A stretch of DNA of 41,412 nucleotides, taken from positions 1 to 41,412 of the forward strand of contig JADGQI010000034.1 of the NCBI GenBank assembly GCA_017881905.1. Reading direction: 5' to 3'. The translations under genes were made by a program, and so were the position numbers. The notes under the pieces were generated by a model. It did not search any database, was not told where the DNA came from, and saw nothing but the letters and a program-made list of their open reading frames with translations. The stretch is from Chloroflexota bacterium. GTDB taxonomy: Bacteria; Chloroflexota; Limnocylindria; Limnocylindrales; CSP1-4. The stretch's first letter is position 1. Every line of letters begins with the position of its first letter. Below, one piece after another: positions 7,995 to 31,834 of the stretch.

Positions 7995-9386
7995 ATGCGT
8001 CGCTTCGTCCCCATCCTCATCGTGGTCATCGGCCTGCTCGCGCTCGCGATCGACTTCTGGCCCGGCCTCAAGCTGCCGGCCCTCGGCGACCCCTCGGCGG
8101 GGTCGCGCGTCGTCGAGACGAAGCTCGGGCTCGACCTCCAGGGCGGCCTCCGGGTCGAGTACCAGGCGCTCCCTGTCGGCGACAAGTCACCCGACGCCGG
8201 AGCGATGGCGACGATCCGCGACATCATCGAGCGCCGGGTCAACTCGACCGGCGTGTCGGAGCCGATCGTCGTGGTCCAGGGCACCGATCGGGTCGTCGTC
8301 GAGCTGCCGGGCGCCACCGACCGCGAGGCGATCGAGCGCCTCGTCGGCCAGACCGGCCAGCTGACGTTCGTCCCGCTGCCCGCCGACCGCTACGGGACCT
8401 CGACGACGGGCGGACCGAACGGCGTACTCGACGGGCAGCCGCTGCCGGACGATCCGAACCTGACGCCGTTGTTCACCGGCGAGCACCTGACCGCTGCGAA
8501 CCCCGGGAACGACCAGACGACGGGCGAGCCGGTCGTGGCGTTCACCCTCGACGAAACCGCGGCCAAGCTCTTCGCCGACTACACCAAGGCGCACGTCGGC
8601 GAGTTCTTCGCGATCGTCCTCGACAACAAGGTCATCTCGGCCCCGAGCATCCGCGAGCAGATCCCGAACGGTTCCGGTCAGATCACGATGGGCTCGGGCA
8701 AGGATGCGGTCGCGTCGATGAACGACCTGGTCGCCGTCCTCCGGTACGGCTCACTGCCCTTCCCGATCCATGCGGTCCAGGACTCGCAGATCAGCGCCAC
8801 GCTCGGCGCGGAGTTCCTGCATTCGAGCCTTGTCGCCGGGGCTATCGGGATCGGGCTGGTCTTCCTGTTCATGCTCATCTACTACCGGCTGCCGGGACTG
8901 GTGGCCGACCTGGCGCTGCTGTACTACGCGATCGTGGTGCTGGCGATCTTCCGGCTCATCCCGGTGACGCTGACCCTGGCCGGCATCGCCGGCTTCGTCC
9001 TGTCGGTGGGCATGGCGGTCGACGCCAACATCCTCATCTTCGAGCGGACCAAGGAAGAGCTCCGGCTGGGCAAGACCCTCAACTCGGCCGTCGAGGCCGG
9101 CTTCGCCCGGGCCTGGAATTCGATCCTCGACTCGAACGTCTCGAGCCTCATCACCGCCGGCATCCTGTACGCCTTCGGCTCCCCGACGATCAAGGGCTTC
9201 GCCCTCGTCCTGATCATCGGCGTGCTGACCTCGATGTTCACCGCGGTCACCGTGACGCGGACGATCCTCCGGGTCGTCGTCCGTCAGGACTTCGCGCGCA
9301 AGGCCAGGTTGTGGGGGGTCAGCGACGACGATTTCCTGGCGCGGACCCCGGGTCGCGGTCCGCGTCCGGTGCGCGCCCGTGTTTGA
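7995..9386 (+). CDS. secD: Protein translocase subunit SecD
   Basis: LGLDLQGGLRVEYQA motif, multi-TM C-terminus with VGMAVDANILIFERTKEEL. Confidence 0.96.
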   Translation: MRRFVPILIVVIGLLALAIDFWPGLKLPALGDPSAGSRVVETKLGLDLQGGLRVEYQALPVGDKSPDAGAMATIRDIIERRVNSTGVSEPIVVVQGTDRVVVELPGATDREAIERLVGQTGQLTFVPLPADRYGTSTTGGPNGVLDGQPLPDDPNLTPLFTGEHLTAANPGNDQTTGEPVVAFTLDETAAKLFADYTKAHVGEFFAIVLDNKVISAPSIREQIPNGSGQITMGSGKDAVASMNDLVAVLRYGSLPFPIHAVQDSQISATLGAEFLHSSLVAGAIGIGLVFLFMLIYYRLPGLVADLALLYYAIVVLAIFRLIPVTLTLAGIAGFVLSVGMAVDANILIFERTKEELRLGKTLNSAVEAGFARAWNSILDSNVSSLITAGILYAFGSPTIKGFALVLIIGVLTSMFTAVTVTRTILRVVVRQDFARKARLWGVSDDDFLARTPGRGPRPVRARV

Positions 9387-10602
9387 CGTCATCGGCAAAC
9401 GTCGCTGGTTCTTCCTGATCTCGGCGATCGCGACCATCCCCGGGTTCATCTTCATCCTTCTCGGTCCCATCACCAACGGGGCGGCGGGGCTGCAGTTCTC
9501 GATCGATTTCACCGGCGGCACGAACTGGGAGATCCAGTTCGCGGACCCGACGGTCACCGGCAGCCAGATCAAGAGCGCGCTCGTGGACCAGGGCGTGACC
9601 GATGCCTCGGTCATCGCGACCAGCGGTGGCTTCTATGAGATCCGCTCGCGACAGGTCGCCCTGCCGCCGCCGGCGGCGACCCCGTCGCCGTCGATCGCGC
9701 CGAGCGGCGTCGCGTCGCCGGGTGCCTCAGCCGGCACCGGCGCCTCGGCTTCCCCGGTGCCGAGAGCGTCGGCCGGCGCGGCTGCATCCGCCTCGCCCGG
9801 GGCGGGCGCATCAGCCTCGCCCGGCACCTCCGCCGCCCCGAATCCTTCAGCCTCGGGTAGTCCGGCGCCGTCCGCGTCGGCCTCTCCGTCGGCGTCCCCG
9901 GCGATCGGCGTGGGGAGCACCGAGCCACAGCTGCCGACGACCGGCGCCTTCGGGAAGATCGCGACGGGGCTGCAGAAGGAGCTCGGGCCCATCGCGGCCC
10001 AGCGGGCGCTCTCGACAGTCGGGCCCGTCATCAGCCAGGAGCTGACCCAGCAGGCCGCCCTGCTCATCGTCCTCGGCTCGATCGGGATCCTGATCTGGAT
10101 GACCATCCGGTTCCACGACGTCAGGTTCGGCGCGACCGCCCTCGTGGCGCTCGTGCATGACGTGCTCGTGCTCATCGGTACATTCGCGATCCTCGGGACG
10201 TTCTTCCGCGTCCAGATCGACGCCCTGTTCGTGACCGCGGTCCTGACCGTCATCGGCTTCAGCGTCCACGACACGATCGTCGTCTACGACCGGATCCGGG
10301 AGAACCGGGCCCGTCACATCGGCGAGCCGTTCGACCGGATCGTCAACCACTCGATCCTCCAGACGTTCGGACGGTCGATCAACACCAGCCTGACGGTCAT
10401 CATCACGCTGACCGCGCTGCTCCTGTTCGGCGGGGCAGCGACGACCTACTTCGTCCTGGCCCTTGTCATCGGCATCGTGTCCGGGACGTACTCGTCGATC
10501 TTCAACGCCTCGCCGCTGCTGGTCGTCTGGCACAACTGGGATGACCGCCGGCGCGGGCGGGTGGCGACCACCGGGCGACCGGCCCGCCGCTCCGCGTCCT
10601 GA
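9379..10602 (+). CDS. secF: Protein translocase subunit SecF with large Ala/Ser/Pro-rich insertion in the extracytoplasmic domain
   Basis: FSIDFTGGTNWEIQF, VIGFSVHDTIVVYDRIRENR. GTG start overlaps the secD 3' end by 8 nt. Confidence 0.95.
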   Translation: MFDVIGKRRWFFLISAIATIPGFIFILLGPITNGAAGLQFSIDFTGGTNWEIQFADPTVTGSQIKSALVDQGVTDASVIATSGGFYEIRSRQVALPPPAATPSPSIAPSGVASPGASAGTGASASPVPRASAGAAASASPGAGASASPGTSAAPNPSASGSPAPSASASPSASPAIGVGSTEPQLPTTGAFGKIATGLQKELGPIAAQRALSTVGPVISQELTQQAALLIVLGSIGILIWMTIRFHDVRFGATALVALVHDVLVLIGTFAILGTFFRVQIDALFVTAVLTVIGFSVHDTIVVYDRIRENRARHIGEPFDRIVNHSILQTFGRSINTSLTVIITLTALLLFGGAATTYFVLALVIGIVSGTYSSIFNASPLLVVWHNWDDRRRGRVATTGRPARRSAS

Positions 10603-24008: not shown

Positions 24009-24095
24009 GCCGAGGTGGCGGAATCGGTAGACGCGCTAGCTTCAGGAGCTAGTGTCCGCAAGGGCGTATGGGTTCAAATCCCTTCCTCGGTACCA
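24009..24095 (+). tRNA. tRNA-Leu (anticodon CAG)
   Basis: Acceptor GCCGAGG/CCTCGGT, anticodon arm CTAGC-TTCAGGA-GCTAG, long variable arm, T-loop GGTTCAAATCC, encoded CCA. Confidence 0.95.
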
Positions 24096-24126
24096 CCCCT
24101 CGACCGAGCCTCAGACAGCGTGCGAT

Positions 24127-24211
24127 GCCCAGGTGGCGGAATTGGTATACGCGTACGTTTGAGGGGCGTATGAGGCAACTCATCCGGGTTCAAGTCCCGG
24201 CCTGGGCACCA
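24127..24211 (+). tRNA. tRNA-Leu (anticodon GAG)
   Basis: Acceptor GCCCAGG/CCTGGGC, anticodon arm TACGT-TTGAGGG-GCGTA, long variable arm, T-loop GGTTCAAGTCC, encoded CCA. Confidence 0.95.
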
Positions 24212-24343
24212 CCCCCGCACTGATCCCGACGGCGGTCCGACCTCCGGACCGCCGTTCCGATTCGAGGATGGGCGTCGGTCGTGGCGGTCGACCGCCGTGA
24301 CCGCGGCGGTATCCTGCCCCTGCCCTCCATCGCCCACCGATTC

Positions 24344-24400
24344 GCGCCCGCTCCGGTAGAGATGCGCACCCGCTCCGATAGAAACGGTCATTGCTACCGG
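24344..24400 (+). repeat. Imperfect tandem repeat with an enclosing 7-bp inverted repeat in the tRNA-Leu/tRNA-Val intergenic region
   Basis: GCGCCCGCTCCGGTAGAGAT followed by GCGCACCCGCTCCGATAGAAAC; CCGGTAG (24353-24359) pairs with CTACCGG (24394-24400). Confidence 0.55.
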
Positions 24401-24601
24401 ACCGCCCACGCCCGTCCGGTCCGGGCCATCGCGTGCCCTTGAGCGCGCCCGCATTCATGGCCGTTGTATCTAGGGTCACAAGGGATCAACGGGAGCCGAT
24501 GCCGCCTGCCGGGGTCACACCCGGGCGGTTCCTAGCAATGGTGGTCCTACCCGGGCGGCGACGGCACCCGCCATGATCGCGGACGTATCCTGCCTCTGCC
24601 C

Positions 24602-24678
24602 GGGCGGTTAGCTCAGTCGGTCAGAGCGCCTCGCTTACACCGAGGATGTCGGGGGTTCGAGTCCCTCACCGCCCACCA
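24602..24678 (+). tRNA. tRNA-Val (anticodon TAC)
   Basis: Acceptor GGGCGGT/ACCGCCC, anticodon arm CCTCG-CTTACAC-CGAGG, T-loop GGTTCGAGTCC, encoded CCA. Confidence 0.95.
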
Positions 24679-24717
24679 GATCCTGGACATCAGATGGCTC
24701 CGGTCGGCACGCCGTGC

Positions 24718-25749
24718 TCAGTCGTCCCAACGGACCCGGACGCCCTGCCGGATGCCGGGCAGCGGCAGCGACGCGGCCTCCGCCTCAGCGGCCTCACGCT
24801 GCGCGGACGATAGGCGGCGCCACGGCGCGATCGTGAGATCGGTCTGGGCGCGTCTCCACGTCCCGACGATCTCGCCGTCCACCAGGACGGCGCCGGGCCA
24901 GACGCGGGGGGTCCACAGCGCACGACGGTGGTCCGAGTCAGGGACCAGGAGCTCGCGATCGGCTCCTTGGAGGAGGAAGTACGAGTCCCCGCTCGGGAGA
25001 AGCCGCGCGGCCGCTGCGAGTCCGGCGGGAACGCCGAACGTCGGCTCGTCGTCGCCCAGGATCCAGGCATCGCCGACGGGCGTCCGCACCGGCGTCAGGG
25101 ATCCGCCGAGCGCACCGAACGCCGCGTGGCCATCCGCCGGCCTGATCCCGGCCCACCGAGTGAATCCCGCAGGCGTCGCCGGACCGAAGACGTGCAGGTA
25201 TCGGCGGGCGAGCTCCAGGCGCGCCTCGACGGGGTCGACGTCCGGAGGCGGCACGGTCCAGACGTCGGGCTGGCGGGCCCCGTCCCAGCGGATCAGCACC
25301 GTGCCGGTGGGCGCGGCGTACCGGAGGCTATTCGGATGCACCCCGAGCCCGTGTCCCACCTCGCCATAGGTCATTCGCCGGCCGCCGAGGAAGGCGTGGA
25401 GCCGGTGCGCCAGATCCTCGGCGCGACGCCGACCCGCCGCGTCGCTGGGGAGCCGGCCGAGTGAGAAGAGCGCGAGGTCCCGCGCAGCGATGACGTAGGC
25501 GCTGTACCGCGGGCCCCACAGCTGCACGAACGACCGATCCTCCCACGCGTCCGGTCCGGTCCCGTGGACACGGGCATGGATCGAGTGAAGGGCCGCCCGC
25601 GGTGCGCTGTCCTGGAGGCCGGCCCAGGCTGCACGCCTGAGAGCGGTGGGGCCCGCCGGCAGTCGGTCGTCGAAGCCATTGACCGACCGTCGGTACGTGA
25701 CGATCTGTTCGCGCGTGAGCTCGACTCGGGCCGTCGTCACGTCAAGCAC
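24718..25749 (-). CDS. Winged-helix DNA-binding domain protein of the AlkZ/HTH_42 family (putative DNA glycosylase-like)
   Basis: GLQDSAPRAALHSIHARVHG..YVIAARDLALFSLGRLP..YGEVGHGLG..LARRYLHVFGPATPAGFTRWAGI..VLVDGEIVGTWRRA is the family layout. GTG start. Confidence 0.8.
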   Translation of the reverse strand: MLDVTTARVELTREQIVTYRRSVNGFDDRLPAGPTALRRAAWAGLQDSAPRAALHSIHARVHGTGPDAWEDRSFVQLWGPRYSAYVIAARDLALFSLGRLPSDAAGRRRAEDLAHRLHAFLGGRRMTYGEVGHGLGVHPNSLRYAAPTGTVLIRWDGARQPDVWTVPPPDVDPVEARLELARRYLHVFGPATPAGFTRWAGIRPADGHAAFGALGGSLTPVRTPVGDAWILGDDEPTFGVPAGLAAAARLLPSGDSYFLLQGADRELLVPDSDHRRALWTPRVWPGAVLVDGEIVGTWRRAQTDLTIAPWRRLSSAQREAAEAEAASLPLPGIRQGVRVRWDD

Positions 25750-25768
25750 GGGCAGCGGCCCCGGCAGA

Positions 25769-25873
25769 CTATCGACCGCGACGGACCATCGCGACGACGA
25801 GGACGATCGGCGCGATGAAGATCCCGACGATGAACACGATGATCAGCAGTTCGAGCGGACCGACGGTGGGCAT
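25769..25873 (-). CDS. 34-aa single-TM microprotein (TatA-N-terminus-like), upstream of the AlkZ-like gene
   Basis: Reverse strand ATG..TAG: MPTVGPLELLIIVFIVGIFIAPIVLVVAMVRRGR. AGGAG Shine-Dalgarno 9 nt upstream; stop 19 nt before the AlkZ-like GTG. Below the 60-aa cutoff of the ORF track. Confidence 0.65.
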   Translation of the reverse strand: MPTVGPLELLIIVFIVGIFIAPIVLVVAMVRRGR

Positions 25874-26002
25874 CTTGGGTCGACTCCTACAGGCCTGTGG
25901 TCACCGTACTCCACCTCGGCCCCGAGTCAATGGGCGAACGCCCGCTCGGTGGGGGACCGGCGCCCGCTCGTCGACCGGTCGCCATGCGGCCCGTGCGCCT
26001 CC

Positions 26003-26011
26003 TGCTAGACT
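26003..26011 (+). promoter_or_regulatory. Extended -10 promoter (TGC-TAGACT) of lemA-htpX
   Basis: CCTGCTAGACTCG, about 42 nt upstream of an SD-preceded ATG. Confidence 0.45.
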
Positions 26012-26053
26012 CGTGGGGCGGCGTGCTCTGTCGCGCGATCCCGGAGGAGGACC

Positions 26054-26617
26054 ATGACACCGCTCCTGATCATCGTCATCATCATCGTCGTCGCGATCGT
26101 CGGCTTCCTGATCGTCCTGTACAACGGGCTCGTCGGTAAGCGCAATCGGGTCGACGAGGCGCTCGCCCAGATCGAGGTCCAACTCAAGCGTCGCCATGAC
26201 CTCATCCCCAACCTGGTCAATGCGGTCAAGGGCTACATGGACTTCGAGCAGGACGTCCTGACCAAGGTCACCGAAGCCCGGGCCGGAGCGATCGCCGCCG
26301 GTGCCAAAGGGACCGCGGAGCAGGCCCAGGCGGAGAACGTCCTGACCGGCGCCCTGCGCTCGTTGTTCGCCGTCGTGGAGAACTATCCGCAGCTCAAGGC
26401 CAACGAGAACGTCCTCGCGCTCCAGGAGCAGCTGACCACGACCGAGAACCAGATCTCGTTCTCGCGCCAGCACTACAACGCCTCGGTCCTCGACTTCAAC
26501 ACCGCCATCCAGACGTTCCCGGCGGTCCTGATCGCCGGGATGATGGGCTTCCTCAAGCGGGACTTCTTCGACGCGGAGCCTGAAGCCGACCAGGTTCCGA
26601 GCGTCCAGCTCCGCTAG
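26054..26617 (+). CDS. lemA: LemA family protein
   Basis: N-terminal TM then YNGLVGKRNRVDEALAQIEVQLKRRHDLIPNLVNAVKGYMDFEQDVLTKVTEAR..YNASVLDFNTAIQTFPAVLIA. SD GGAGGAGG. Confidence 0.95.
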   Translation: MTPLLIIVIIIVVAIVGFLIVLYNGLVGKRNRVDEALAQIEVQLKRRHDLIPNLVNAVKGYMDFEQDVLTKVTEARAGAIAAGAKGTAEQAQAENVLTGALRSLFAVVENYPQLKANENVLALQEQLTTTENQISFSRQHYNASVLDFNTAIQTFPAVLIAGMMGFLKRDFFDAEPEADQVPSVQLR

Positions 26618-26651
26618 GGCGCGCATCCGGTCGAGGTAGACCGGAGGGCCA

Positions 26652-27647
26652 GTGGCTTCGACCTTCTACAGCCAGATCTCCGCCAACAAGCGGGACTCGT
26701 TTCTGCTCGGGCTCGGGCTGGTGGCGATCCTCGGGGTGCTCGGTCTGACGATCGGCTACGCCCTCACGGGATCGGTATCGGGGGCGATCGGCGCCACGGT
26801 GTTCGCGATCGTCATCGGTCTGGCCGCCTCGATGGTGTCCTACTACAAGGGCGATGCGATCGTCCTCGCGGCGTCGGGCGCTCGGGAGATCACCGAAACG
26901 GAGGCGCCCCAGCTCTTCAACGTCATCCGCGAGCTGACGATCGCGGCGGACATCCCGCCACCGAAGGTCTATGTCATCGACGACACGTCGATGAACGCGT
27001 TCGCGACCGGACGGGATCCCCAGCATGCGTCGATCGCGGTCACGACCGGCCTGCTGACGCGGATGGACCGGGAGGAGGTCCAGGGAGTGATCGGGCACGA
27101 GCTATCGCACGTGCGCAACTTCGACATCCGCTTCGCGCTGCTGGTGGGGGTGATGGTCGGGAGCATCGCGCTGCTGGCCGACTTCTTCCTCCGGTTCACC
27201 TTCTGGGGCGGTCGCGGACGTTCGAGCAGCAGCGACCGGGGTGGGGGAGGCCTGCAGGCCATCATCTTCGCCGTCGCGCTCGTCCTGGCCGTCCTGGCGC
27301 CGTTCTTCGCCAAGCTCGTCCAGCTCGCGGTCAGCCGGCAGCGCGAGTACCTGGCCGACGCCTCGGCGGTCGAGCTCACCCGGAACCCGATCGGCTTGGA
27401 GCGCGCATTGGCGACGATCGCCGGCGACACCGAGGTGCTCGAGGTGGCCAACCGGGCGACCCAGCACCTGTACTTCACGAACCCGATCATGAAGGCCTCC
27501 GACGGCGGGGGCGAACCGAGCGCCTGGTTCTCGACACATCCGCCGTTGCTCGACCGGATCAACCGCCTCCGCGAGCTGCGCGGCCAGCCGCCGGTCGGCT
27601 CGACGGCCGAGGAGCTCGCGGCGCCCCGGGGGGATGCGCTCGGTTGA
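26652..27647 (+). CDS. htpX: M48 family membrane metalloprotease HtpX
   Basis: HELSH zinc motif in VQGVIGHELSHVRNFDIR; REYLADASAVELTRNP; multiple TM. GTG start. Confidence 0.95.
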   Translation: MASTFYSQISANKRDSFLLGLGLVAILGVLGLTIGYALTGSVSGAIGATVFAIVIGLAASMVSYYKGDAIVLAASGAREITETEAPQLFNVIRELTIAADIPPPKVYVIDDTSMNAFATGRDPQHASIAVTTGLLTRMDREEVQGVIGHELSHVRNFDIRFALLVGVMVGSIALLADFFLRFTFWGGRGRSSSSDRGGGGLQAIIFAVALVLAVLAPFFAKLVQLAVSRQREYLADASAVELTRNPIGLERALATIAGDTEVLEVANRATQHLYFTNPIMKASDGGGEPSAWFSTHPPLLDRINRLRELRGQPPVGSTAEELAAPRGDALG

Positions 27648-27664
27648 AGGCCGTTCGGAGCCCG

Positions 27665-27673
27665 TGGTATCCT
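27665..27673 (+). promoter_or_regulatory. Extended -10 promoter (TGG-TATCCT) of the tRNA-Phe/Gly/Gln/Cys cluster
   Basis: CCGTGGTATCCTCCGG 40 nt upstream of tRNA-Phe. Confidence 0.5.
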
Positions 27674-27713
27674 CCGGCACGCCGACGGGCGGCCAGCCTG
27701 GTCAGGCCTTCGG

Positions 27714-27789
27714 GCCGAGATAGCTCAGTTGGTAGAGCACGCGACTGAAAATCGCGGTGTCGCCAGTTCGAATCTGGCTCTCGGCACCA
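27714..27789 (+). tRNA. tRNA-Phe (anticodon GAA)
   Basis: Acceptor GCCGAGA/TCTCGGC, anticodon arm CGCGA-CTGAAAA-TCGCG, T-loop, encoded CCA. Confidence 0.95.
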
Positions 27790-27805
27790 CATCGGTGGTG
27801 CACGG

Positions 27806-27881
27806 GCGGGAGTAGCTCAGTTGGCAGAGCGCAACCTTGCCAAGGTTGAGGTCGCGGGTTCGAACCCCGTCTCCCGCTCCA
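27806..27881 (+). tRNA. tRNA-Gly (anticodon GCC)
   Basis: Acceptor GCGGGAG/CTCCCGC, anticodon arm CAACC-TTGCCAA-GGTTG, encoded CCA. Confidence 0.95.
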
Positions 27882-27936
27882 AGATCTCGTCCGACGCACG
27901 GTCGGGCCGGCCGGCCTCCGCCGACGACTCGCCCGA

Positions 27937-28007
27937 TGCCCCTTCGTCCAGTGGTAGGACAGCGGACTTTGAATCCGCGAACCGAGGTTCGAATCCTCGA
28001 GGGGCAA
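27937..28007 (+). tRNA. tRNA-Gln (anticodon TTG), no encoded CCA
   Basis: Acceptor TGCCCCT/AGGGGCA, anticodon arm GCGGA-CTTTGAA-TCCGC, T-loop GGTTCGAATCC; followed by CGA rather than CCA. Confidence 0.93.
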
Positions 28008-28062
28008 CGACCACGTAGACTGGCCGCACGACCGCCGTACCCCTTGCGGCGGACCGTCCCGG

Positions 28063-28138
28063 GGCGACGTACCCAAGTGGTTAAGGGGGAGGTCTGCAAA
28101 ACCTCTATTCAGCGGTTCGAATCCGCTCGTCGCCTCCA
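28063..28138 (+). tRNA. tRNA-Cys (anticodon GCA)
   Basis: Acceptor GGCGACG/CGTCGCC, anticodon arm GAGGT-CTGCAAA-ACCTC, encoded CCA. Confidence 0.95.
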
Positions 28139-28204
28139 CGATCTCCCGAACGCGGTGATCCTCAGCCGTCCGCCTCACGCGGCTCCTCCTGAGCGGTCGG
28201 CGCA

Positions 28205-28234
28205 ACACCCACCCCGTCGGGTGGTGCCGCGGCG
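28205..28234 (+). terminator. Possible intrinsic-type hairpins downstream of tRNA-Cys (no clear T tract)
   Basis: CCACCC-CGTC-GGGTGG stem-loop followed by the GC-rich GTGCCGCGGCGCAC. Confidence 0.3.
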
Positions 28235-28354
28235 CACTTGGCGTGCTCATCGTCGGGACCATCAGGCTATGGGCAACCCACCGGTGGCTCGGTGACACTA
28301 CACGTGGATTTATCTCTCCAAAGGCGTTCATCTCCTCGACGAAAGGATCGTCCG

Positions 28355-28558
28355 ATGTTGCTCAGGGCCAACGTGTTCCTGTCGAGTCTCGCGTACCAGC
28401 TCAGGGCGTTTCGCATCGATTCCGGGCTCACCCGTGGTCAGGGCCTCGCCGAATACGCACTCATCCTCGCGCTCATCGCCATCGTCGCCATCATCGCCCT
28501 GCTCTTCCTCGGTGGCCAGGTCAGCAAGATCCTGAGCACCGTCGGCAAGTCCGTCTGA
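28355..28558 (+). CDS. Flp/Fap-type pilin-like small protein
   Basis: MLLRANVFLSSLAYQLRAFRIDSGLTRGQGLAEYALILALIAIVAIIALLFLGGQVSKILSTVGKSV: GQGLAEYALIL is the Flp prepilin cleavage/E-Y motif; upstream AAAGGA SD-like sequence. Confidence 0.88.
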   Translation: MLLRANVFLSSLAYQLRAFRIDSGLTRGQGLAEYALILALIAIVAIIALLFLGGQVSKILSTVGKSV

Positions 28559-28625
28559 GACGACGCCCGCCTGAAGATATCGGTCTCGCCCGACCGGGGC
28601 CCCGGCTCAGGGGAACCGGTGTGTT

Positions 28626-28643
28626 CTAGTGCGTCTGCACTAG
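28626..28643 (+). repeat. Perfect inverted repeat CTAGTGC-GTCT-GCACTAG between the Flp gene and tRNA-Leu(TAA)
   Basis: Read directly; 7-bp arms, 4-nt loop. Confidence 0.7.
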
Positions 28644-28706
28644 CGATGCTGCCTGCTCTGATCGTGGCCCTCAAGTCGGTCTGAGCCAGGCGCTACGCTT
28701 GCATCG

Positions 28707-28795
28707 GCCGAAGTGGCGGAACCGGCAGACGCGGCGGACTTAAACTCCGCTGACTCGCAAGGGTCGTGTGGGTTCGAACCCCACCTTCGGCACCA
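28707..28795 (+). tRNA. tRNA-Leu (anticodon TAA)
   Basis: Acceptor GCCGAAG/CTTCGGC, anticodon arm GCGGA-CTTAAAC-TCCGC, long variable arm, encoded CCA. Confidence 0.95.
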
Positions 28796-29002
28796 GGGAT
28801 CCGTCTCCACCGCACCTCACAGGGTGCGGCGGTTCCCCTTCGGGAGTGGTACGAACGTCCTGCTCGCCGCCCCGTACGTCCGTACCCTTCGCGCTCGTCG
28901 GACCTCACGCTCTACTACACGAGTGGCGTTCCGTCGGCGGTTGTCCCTCGATCGCGATGGCGCCCCAGGGGAGGCGGTCGTGGCCGCAGGGAGCGGGACA
29001 CG

Positions 29003-30541
29003 GTGGCGACGGTGGTGACGTCGATCACGCCGGGTGCGGTCGGCCGCGACGCTCTCGCCCGCGTCCTCGCGCTCCGGCCCGAACGAGACCGACTGTTCGA
29101 GGCCACGATCCTACGGACCCGAGCGTCGTACGGCCTCCCAGCGAACCCGACCGACCTGCTCAGCCGATGGACGAGCCGCCGAGTCGACCCCGACTCCGCA
29201 GGCGAGCTTCGCTACCCGTGGACCATCTCGCCGCGCTTCATCCGGGCGCATCCACCGCATGTCGGTTCGACGGACACGTGGCGAGCCTGGCGTCCCGCGG
29301 AGACCGAGCTCTGGATCCGCGATCCCGGCGCCTTCACCAGCCGGCTGATCCTGCCGCTTGTGATCACCGAGAACGTCGCGTGGCTCGCCGGATCGGTCGA
29401 CGACCTCCACGGGCGGGTCGCCACCGGGTTGCTCGAGACCGTCGCCCCGACGATCCGTCGAGATCTCGCCGGGTATGTCGCGGATCGCCATGCCTGGGGC
29501 GATACCTGGGCGCTGTGGTGCCTTGCCCGGCATCCGGAGACACTGCGTCGGTTCTACCCATTCGCTCTCGCCATCGCCGACGGGTATGCCGCAAGGGCGC
29601 TTGCTGCCGGTGGGGTCGGACTCGGTTCCCGCTATCCGTTCCACGATCGACCACTCGTCTCGGTCAGCGCTCAACTCGCTCGGGGCCTGATCGGCTTGGG
29701 GATGCGGCCGAAGCTCACCGCCGATCTCGTCCGCCACGTCACCCGTGCCGAGGACCCGGACGGAGGCTGGGGCGACGCAGGTGGACCCGTGGACCCGCTC
29801 ACCACCTTCGTCGTGCTCGAGCTCCTGAGCGCCCTGGTCCCGCCGTCGGCGTTCGATCCGCTGCCGGCTGCGAGAGCGCTCTCGCGCCTTCGGGATGACG
29901 ATGGTTGGTGGCGAGCCCACGGTCCGGAGACCGCCTGGTTGACCGCGGAGATCGGCCGAACGCTCGTACAGCTCGATCGACCGTTCTCGGAACGCTGGCG
30001 GTGGCCCCAGATCAGCGTCGAGCACCGCGATCGTCGAACCGGCCTGGCCGCCTACGCCTATGTCGACGACATCGGTCGCCTGTTCGCGGAGGTCCGCGGC
30101 CTGGCCGACGCGCCGGTCGAGGTCGCGTTCATCGACCTTGCCGGGTTCGGCGCCTGGAACACGACCTACGGGATGCGGATGGGCGATGACGTGCTCGGCG
30201 CATTCGGTGAGGGGCTTCGGACGGTGTCGGGCTGTCTGGCCGTCCGAGATGGCGGAGATGAGTTCGTTCTGATCGGCGCCCCGACCGGGAGCGGGCTCGT
30301 CCGGCGGCTCGAGACCTTCCGAGTGGAGTGGCTCGAGCGGTTCCGGTCGCGCTTCCAGGCGGTCGGCGGCGATGCCATCGCCCCTGTGCGCCCGCGCATC
30401 CTGGTCACCACGGTCGCCGCGCGCGATCTGGTCGCAGCCCGCGACGCCCTCGGGCTCGAGATCGGCCCATTCAAGGCGGCCAACCCGGATCCACCTGAAA
30501 CCGGGGTCATGGCTCGCGTGGATCTGCACCGTCGATCGTGA
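29003..30541 (+). CDS. Unusual two-domain protein: N-terminal alpha/alpha-toroid (terpenoid cyclase/prenyltransferase-repeat-like) region plus C-terminal GGDEF-type domain
   Basis: Repeat-like DPDGGWGDAGGPVDPLTTFVVLELLSAL and DDDGWWRAHGPETAWLTAEIGRTLVQL; C-terminal VEVAFIDLAGFGAWNTTYGMRMGDDVLGAFGEGLRTVSGCLAVRDGGDEFVLIG. Start set to GTG 29003 (GGAG upstream) because the longer ORF overlaps tRNA-Leu. Confidence 0.75.
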   Translation: MATVVTSITPGAVGRDALARVLALRPERDRLFEATILRTRASYGLPANPTDLLSRWTSRRVDPDSAGELRYPWTISPRFIRAHPPHVGSTDTWRAWRPAETELWIRDPGAFTSRLILPLVITENVAWLAGSVDDLHGRVATGLLETVAPTIRRDLAGYVADRHAWGDTWALWCLARHPETLRRFYPFALAIADGYAARALAAGGVGLGSRYPFHDRPLVSVSAQLARGLIGLGMRPKLTADLVRHVTRAEDPDGGWGDAGGPVDPLTTFVVLELLSALVPPSAFDPLPAARALSRLRDDDGWWRAHGPETAWLTAEIGRTLVQLDRPFSERWRWPQISVEHRDRRTGLAAYAYVDDIGRLFAEVRGLADAPVEVAFIDLAGFGAWNTTYGMRMGDDVLGAFGEGLRTVSGCLAVRDGGDEFVLIGAPTGSGLVRRLETFRVEWLERFRSRFQAVGGDAIAPVRPRILVTTVAARDLVAARDALGLEIGPFKAANPDPPETGVMARVDLHRRS

Positions 30542-30610: not shown

Positions 30611-31834
30611 TCAGGTGCGCTTCAGGAGGCCGCCCAGGCCCCGCGACTTCTTCTCCTCGACCGGTGCGCCGGGCTGGGTCGGGGTGCTCCCGAAGGCCGC
30701 GTTCGAGAGCTTGAGCATGGCGGCGGCCACCGGCGTGCGGGCCGCCCCGATAACGACCGGGTCGCCCTCGTTGACGGCCTTGAGGTAGAGGAACGGGTCA
30801 TACGGGAGCGTCAGCGAGACCTTGGCCCCGAGCCCGCTCTCGACATCGCGCATCTTGAGCAGCTCCTTGGCGAACATGCTGTTGAGCACGAACGTGGTCT
30901 TGGACGCGATCGACCCGGCCTCGTTCACGAAGTCGAGGAACGAGTGGACCGCCTTGAGCGCCGAGATCTCCGGATAGACCGGCAGCAGGACCACCTCGGC
31001 TCCCTCGAGCGCCGCCAGCGATCGTTCGTCGAGGGCCGAACCTGCGTCGACGACCACCGCCTCGTAGGCCAGCAGCGCCGTCTCGAGGATCCGCTCGACG
31101 TGGCTCGCCGAGACGAGGTCCGCCAGCTCGGGTGAGCCCGGCGCGGCCAGCACGTCGAGACCGGATGCCTCGTGGCGCGTGGCATAGGTGCGGAGCAGCT
31201 CCGGCTCACGCTGCGACTGCTCGTCGCGGGCGAGGTCGGCGACCGTCTGGCGCGGGATCACGTTGAGGTGGGTGGCGACCTGGCCGAACTGGAGATCGAG
31301 GTCGACGATCAGGACGCGCCCGGGCCGCGACGCGGCATGGGCCACCGCCACGTTGACCGCGATCGTCGTCGTCCCGACCCCGCCCTTCGGACTGTACACG
31401 GCGACCATCCGCCGTGGCTGCTCGAACAACCCGCCGCCGATCGCCGAGATCGCTCCGCGCGATCGCTGGAACCGGACGAGGAGCGCCTCGACGCGGGCCT
31501 CGAGCTCGCGTCGGTCGAACGGCTTGGCCACGACGTCGTCCGCTCCGGCCTCGAGGAAGCGGATCCGCTCCTCGACGTCGTCGGCCTCGGACATGCACAG
31601 GACCGGGACCGCCGCCAGGCTCGGCGTCCCCCGGATCTCCCGGCAGACGTCCGCGGCGGTCGTCGTCGGACCGGTGACGTCGATGATGACCATCGTGTGA
31701 TCGGCGGCGACCCGGAGGGCCTCGCCGACGTCGGCCACCGTGTCGACGGCGTAGCCGACCCCGGACAGCACGGTCCGGATGGCCTCGCCGGCGATCGCGT
31801 CGGTCTCGAGCAGAAGGATGGAGCTGGCGGGCAC
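30611..31834 (-). CDS. CpaE-like protein: receiver domain + ParA/MinD-type ATPase
   Basis: REC features (ILLLETDA, VIIDVTGP, LCMSEADD, AKPFD) followed by VYSPKGGVGTTTIAVNVAVAHA deviant Walker A. GTG start. Confidence 0.9.
   Translation of the reverse strand: MPASSILLLETDAIAGEAIRTVLSGVGYAVDTVADVGEALRVAADHTMVIIDVTGPTTTAADVCREIRGTPSLAAVPVLCMSEADDVEERIRFLEAGADDVVAKPFDRRELEARVEALLVRFQRSRGAISAIGGGLFEQPRRMVAVYSPKGGVGTTTIAVNVAVAHAASRPGRVLIVDLDLQFGQVATHLNVIPRQTVADLARDEQSQREPELLRTYATRHEASGLDVLAAPGSPELADLVSASHVERILETALLAYEAVVVDAGSALDERSLAALEGAEVVLLPVYPEISALKAVHSFLDFVNEAGSIASKTTFVLNSMFAKELLKMRDVESGLGAKVSLTLPYDPFLYLKAVNEGDPVVIGAARTPVAAAMLKLSNAAFGSTPTQPGAPVEEKKSRGLGGLLKRT

Follow-up and report, generated by a model that had tools for sequence, protein, structure and literature searches.

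In the window, the whole 41,412-nucleotide stretch of DNA analysed here, a single ORF on the forward strand (29003-30541) encodes a protein of 512 residues plus a stop codon, in which an N-terminal (α/α) toroid is fused to a GGDEF domain (toroid-GGDEF). The ORF starts with GTG at 29003, its stop codon ends at 30541, and all the motifs quoted in the first-pass annotation are present. The GTG start is plausible, because a possible ribosome binding site, AGGGAGC, precedes it at 28988-28994 (+), and a longer in-frame extension to 28766 would reach into the tRNA-Leu gene at 28707-28795. In the window the gene is surrounded by tRNA genes, a pilin-like short ORF and, on the other strand, a receiver-AAA gene; the related copies are flanked differently. 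Eight tRNA genes lie within 5 kb (24009-28795), interspersed with protein genes; the short Flp-pilin-like ORF (28238-28555, +) has no Pfam hit, and the CpaE/TadZ-like receiver-AAA gene (30614-31834, -) is not conserved beside related copies. A search for riboswitches in the window found none, its RNA matches being tRNAs only.

The fusion protein is organised as a toroid of the terpenoid cyclase/prenyltransferase fold class (residues 1-331; 29003-29995, +), assigned by AlphaFold2, Foldseek and profile matches, followed by a short linker (residues 332-341; 29996-30025, +), delimited by the secondary structure of the model and by conservation, and the GGDEF domain (residues 342-505; 30026-30517, +), assigned by Pfam, profiles and Foldseek. 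The AlphaFold2 model of the full protein was computed on an alignment of 28 family members (A2), which predates two later myxococcal copies (L101 and L102). It has a pLDDT of 94.2 and a pTM of 0.93, compared to 93.5 and 0.93 for the N-domain alone; the full-length pTM implies a fixed arrangement of the toroid and GGDEF domains. In the model the linker contains neither a stalk helix nor a coiled coil, and R331, P335 and D343, in or around it, are each invariant. The first-pass annotation had proposed that the two domains are joined in one protein, and model, Foldseek and profiles bear out both of them, in agreement with the homologs.

Search of 61 related genomes revealed full-length homologs that are 49-53% identical, together with a second group at 39-40%; profile searches, run on the contigs of the genomes and on the family as a whole, widened the set. 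Altogether, about 30 proteins from Limnocylindria (Chloroflexota) and Myxococcota carry the toroid and the GGDEF domain in one frame, an architecture that both phyla retain at sequence identities of about 35-50%. Toroid-GGDEF is thus a rare but conserved bacterial family and the fusion is real; an assembly chimera as its origin is ruled out by the many independent homologs. The gene occurs in 16 of 177 Limnocylindria genomes and, as eight clear cases plus one fragment, among 290 genomes of the Myxococcota class, so that its distribution is patchy within both classes. In the tree, which resolves several clades, the myxococcal proteins group together and adjoin the clade of the window protein. 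The window's own genome has a paralogous second copy, 39% identical, on contig C49 (G000:C49; L031:5806-7548, -), and the genomes of genus g16 have two copies each. The copy in genome G022 is apparently frameshifted near residue 438, with its C-terminal remainder in another frame (L044 about 9192-9434 / L005 2733-2940), which appears to be a sequencing error or decay. An N-domain lacking the GGDEF domain was not seen among the 177 Limnocylindria genomes, the sole exception ending at a contig end. Spread to Gammaproteobacteria was considered and rejected: the contig labelled Steroidobacteraceae (L058) shares coordinates with a contig of a Limnocylindria genome (G174/G184), and its label is probably wrong. 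Viral contigs hold no relatives of the family, and a viral origin was therefore rejected; plasmids gave no match either, and PADLOC matched no phage-defence family.

Structural similarity search with the N-domain is dominated by (α/α) toroids and barrels, with a best E of 5.4e-3 and a best TM of 0.52 (8PAK), so the AlphaFold2 model and Foldseek both show a toroid at the N-terminus. Class II terpene cyclases come first, including ent-copalyl diphosphate synthase, squalene-hopene cyclase (TM 0.52), MstE and drimenyl diphosphate synthase; further matches are transcobalamin, RabGGTase β, TEP/complement domains and glycosidases. In the model the fold class is evident, though known structures lie at a large distance from it. 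At the profile level, the N-domain matches structures of the squalene-hopene cyclase type with E-values of 4.6e-4 and 2.2e-3, and the protein L106, the only other N-domain match in the phylum sample, with an HHalign probability of 96.3% (E 1.5e-9). L106 (1384-2913, -) is a squalene-hopene-cyclase-type protein from a distant Chloroflexota genome. The Pfam cut-offs for squalene-hopene cyclase and Prenyltrans were unreached, with best E-values of 0.098 and 0.033, respectively, among the 28 members, two of which match Prenyltrans weakly; the N-domain is therefore best placed as a divergent branch outside the named families. Among the carriers of toroid-GGDEF tested, 10 of 12 have no match to PF13243.

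The toroid keeps a distinct set of residues. R97 (29291-29293, +) and D167 (29501-29503, +), the latter in PWxDTFALW and near the N-terminus of helix 164-176 in the model, are invariant in all 28 aligned sequences. So are D258 and D264 of the QW-like repeat GGWGDAGGPVDPLTT (29762-29806, +), at the N-terminus of helix 265-278; this repeat aligns by HHalign to a QW repeat of L106. A second QW-like repeat, DDDGWWRAHGPETAWLT (29894-29944, +), contains G301, P308, E/D309 and W312 and precedes helix 310-323. W73, Y195, G254, G301, P308 and W312 are invariant or missing in one sequence, and many Trp residues are conserved. The QW-like repeats reported in the first-pass annotation hold in part: one or two are recognisable per protein, but strict motifs are few and none is strict in the window copy. 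Its statement that the class II cyclase motif DxDD is missing is upheld, for 27 of 28 members are without it and the remaining match, DGDD in L055, is a chance one. DDxxD is likewise not conserved in the toroid.

Active sites of toroid proteins often lie at helix starts, and in the AlphaFold2 model D264, S220, E/D309 and D167 are at or near such positions. The invariant charged residues may line the mouth of a cavity in the model; the Asp and Ser residues at helix starts may also be simple helix caps. These residues bear on a less probable alternative, in which the toroid has no ligand pocket and serves as a scaffold that binds a protein or a membrane and does no more than place or dimerise the cyclase. 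Such a role would suit a toroid with no known cyclase catalytic motif, whose fold matches include the complement TED and transcobalamin toroids, which act in binding, and whose gene neighbours vary; however, four charged residues invariant in 28 sequences of two phyla exceed what a bare scaffold needs.

The C-terminal domain belongs to the GGDEF family. Pfam GGDEF (PF00990) matches residues 342-426 with an E-value of 1.3e-6 and 28.8 bits, compared to a curated cut-off of 23.8, and is matched by 27 of the 28 family members, the remaining one being cut by a contig end. NCBIfam returned GGDEF-type models only for the window protein, phmmer against PDB sequences placed the diguanylate cyclase of Thermotoga maritima at the top (E 3e-7), and the family profile matches ordinary GGDEFs with HHalign 99.2% (E 2.2e-19) in an alignment that spans residues 340-428 only. 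Foldseek with the whole model retrieved the GGDEF domains of PleD, DgcR and SadC, with E-values down to 8.8e-7 (PleD) and a TM by target of 0.76 for the GGDEF domain of SadC.

Comparison with PleD, for which the roles of D327, N335, D344, E370 and K442 are described in PMC7288161 (that of E371 is not given there), showed that the residues contacting metal and guanine are retained. D378 (30134-30136, +) corresponds to the metal ligand D327, N386 (30158-30160, +) to the guanine contact N335 and D395, in the pair G394-D395 (30182-30187, +), to the guanine contact D344, each in 27 of 27 sequences. In the signature R415-D-G-G-D-E-F421 (30245-30265, +), R415, G417, G418, D419 and E420 are unchanged in 27/27 and F421 in 26/27, with D419 and E420 corresponding to PleD E370 and E371. 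K491 (30473-30475, +), conserved in 26/26, is the probable equivalent of the phosphate-binding K442; it was placed by the order of helices and strands in the model, not by the profile alignment, which stops at residue 428. Of the features that had been read from the window sequence, the first metal-type Asp, the conserved Asn and the GGDE of the GGDEF motif are therefore present throughout the family (27/27). In Hypr GGDEF enzymes, which make cGAMP, a Ser replaces the guanine-contacting Asp (PMC6456294). No Ser or Thr of this kind was found at that position, which is Asp in 27/27, and since D395 is kept, c-di-GMP is expected over cGAMP as the product.

Other parts of the GGDEF domain have changed. 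The first-pass annotation had pointed to the replaced second Asp and Lys of DxDxFK; both replacements stand, but loss of the second Asp is no argument against activity, because the diguanylate cyclase of T. maritima lacks it as well, reading DLAGFK at this site. The residue after DLAGF, at the position of the Lys, is Gly in 14 and Arg in 13 sequences; in PleD, the main chain of this Lys takes part in phosphate binding (PMC7288161). Moreover, the equivalent of PleD R446, a phosphate-binding residue like K442, is absent from the family, the C-terminal part has diverged too far for the profile alignment and the TGLxNR motif is changed. The divergent C-terminal part and the changes in the DxDxFK Lys and the TGLxNR motif would fit a degenerate GGDEF domain in a wholly non-catalytic binding protein; nevertheless, GGDE, D378, N386 and D395 have stayed the same throughout a tree whose paths exceed one change per site, and we regard that explanation as quite improbable.

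The absence of an RxxD I-site, noted earlier for the window protein, extends to the whole family: the motif five residues before GGDEF is found in 0 of 27 members, compared to 11 of 11 ordinary GGDEFs of related genomes taken as controls. The turn upstream of GGDEF that carries the I-site is two residues shorter than in ordinary GGDEFs. Product inhibition through a primary I-site would thus be absent. Together with the missing R446 equivalent, the lost I-site would also suit reversed roles, in which the toroid is the enzyme, using acid- or metal-assisted chemistry through its invariant Arg and Asp residues. The GGDEF domain would then have given up c-di-GMP synthesis and act as a regulator that binds GTP. 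The invariance of R97, D167, D258 and D264 and the many conserved Trp residues agree with such a toroid enzyme, but neither DxDD nor DDxxD is conserved in it, and the GGDEF domain keeps its metal and guanine side chains, including the acidic pair of GG[DE]E, which a mere GTP sensor could dispense with. We consider this arrangement improbable.

Clustering of the neighbours across 25 loci gave no candidate operon partner, as no gene accompanies toroid-GGDEF everywhere. One setting recurs (G000:C49, genus g14), with the gene for a luciferase-like monooxygenase (LLM) on one side of toroid-GGDEF and trxB on the other. This setting looks like gain or loss and not like a functional operon, because the row of LLM, trxB and ABC transporter genes is intact without toroid-GGDEF in many relatives (trxB loci L112-L141), even within one genus. 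Each of the 12 carrier genomes tested encodes EAL phosphodiesterases, which makes c-di-GMP turnover likely in these genomes. PilZ proteins are plentiful in the myxococcal carriers and recognisable in only one of the seven Limnocylindria carriers tested.

Altogether, the computed features of toroid-GGDEF are both folds, the conserved fusion, invariant GTP-site residues, and the lack of RxxD and DxDD. We propose, with a probability of roughly one half, that it acts as a free-standing and probably soluble diguanylate cyclase, with a toroid that lost the known cyclase chemistry as its input domain. Judged from its sequence, the GGDEF domain would bind GTP and make c-di-GMP, and the toroid would take up a small ligand or associate with a partner. 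Binding would alter the way in which a pair of GGDEF domains is held together by the toroid, or would make the toroid cover the active site, and c-di-GMP synthesis would run without product inhibition at a primary I-site. As the linker is short, conserved and devoid of a stalk helix, switching would proceed by the arrangement of the toroids and not by coiled-coil rotation. Against the cyclase reading stand the lost R446 equivalent, Gly or Arg for the DxDxFK Lys, the C-terminal divergence, a recognisable PilZ receptor in only 1/7 Limnocylindria carriers tested and the want of a conserved partner gene. A narrower version, in which the toroid has a pocket for an isoprenoid, another lipid or a sugar and thereby exerts direct control over c-di-GMP synthesis, is unlikely as a specific claim. 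The first-pass annotation had suggested a lipid/isoprenoid sensor or a scaffold as the role of the toroid, and the results speak neither for nor against this suggestion.

Input domains determine what c-di-GMP networks respond to, and a small number of folds (PAS, GAF, REC, MASE etc.) accounts for most of them. Toroid-GGDEF may represent a new kind of sensor feeding c-di-GMP signalling, and a toroid input combined with the lack of a stalk helix and of RxxD would extend both the chemistry sensed and the mechanism of activation. According to a 2022 review of c-di-GMP inputs (PMC8846402), a sensor domain for lipids was yet to be identified; the words toroid, prenyl, squalene and terpen are all absent from that review. 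In the literature search, in which co-occurrences were judged by title and abstract, no paper relevantly joined GGDEF with a toroid, prenyltransferase, squalene or terpene cyclase; the combination may already be listed in subscription papers or domain-architecture databases, which lay outside the search. If the lipid reading were true, a terpene-cyclase fold would have turned into a second-messenger sensor, possibly the first lipid-type input identified for a diguanylate cyclase. Toroid-GGDEF also provides a defined and probably soluble protein on which lipid sensing could be tested directly.

Compared to class II terpene and squalene-hopene cyclases (PF13243, PF13249; 8PAK, MstE, 5BP8), toroid-GGDEF shares the toroid fold, QW-like repeats and profile-level similarity, but it has no DxDD, a single toroid and no more than one or two recognisable QW repeats, and stays below the Pfam cut-offs. 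The β subunits of protein prenyltransferases (PF00432; RabGGTase β) have the toroid fold in common with it, whereas the match to their family model is not significant and no partner resembling their α subunit was seen. With the GGDEF diguanylate cyclases (PF00990), such as PleD, SadC and T. maritima tDGC (4URS), it shares the fold and the metal, guanine and GG(D/E)EF residues, and with tDGC also the DLAGF string. It differs from them in the missing RxxD I-site and stalk helix, the toroid as input domain, Gly or Arg for the DxDxFK Lys, R-D before GGDEF and the changed C-terminal motif. The Hypr GGDEF enzymes (GacA) have the GGDEF spelling in common with it; however, toroid-GGDEF keeps an Asp (D395) where they have Ser.
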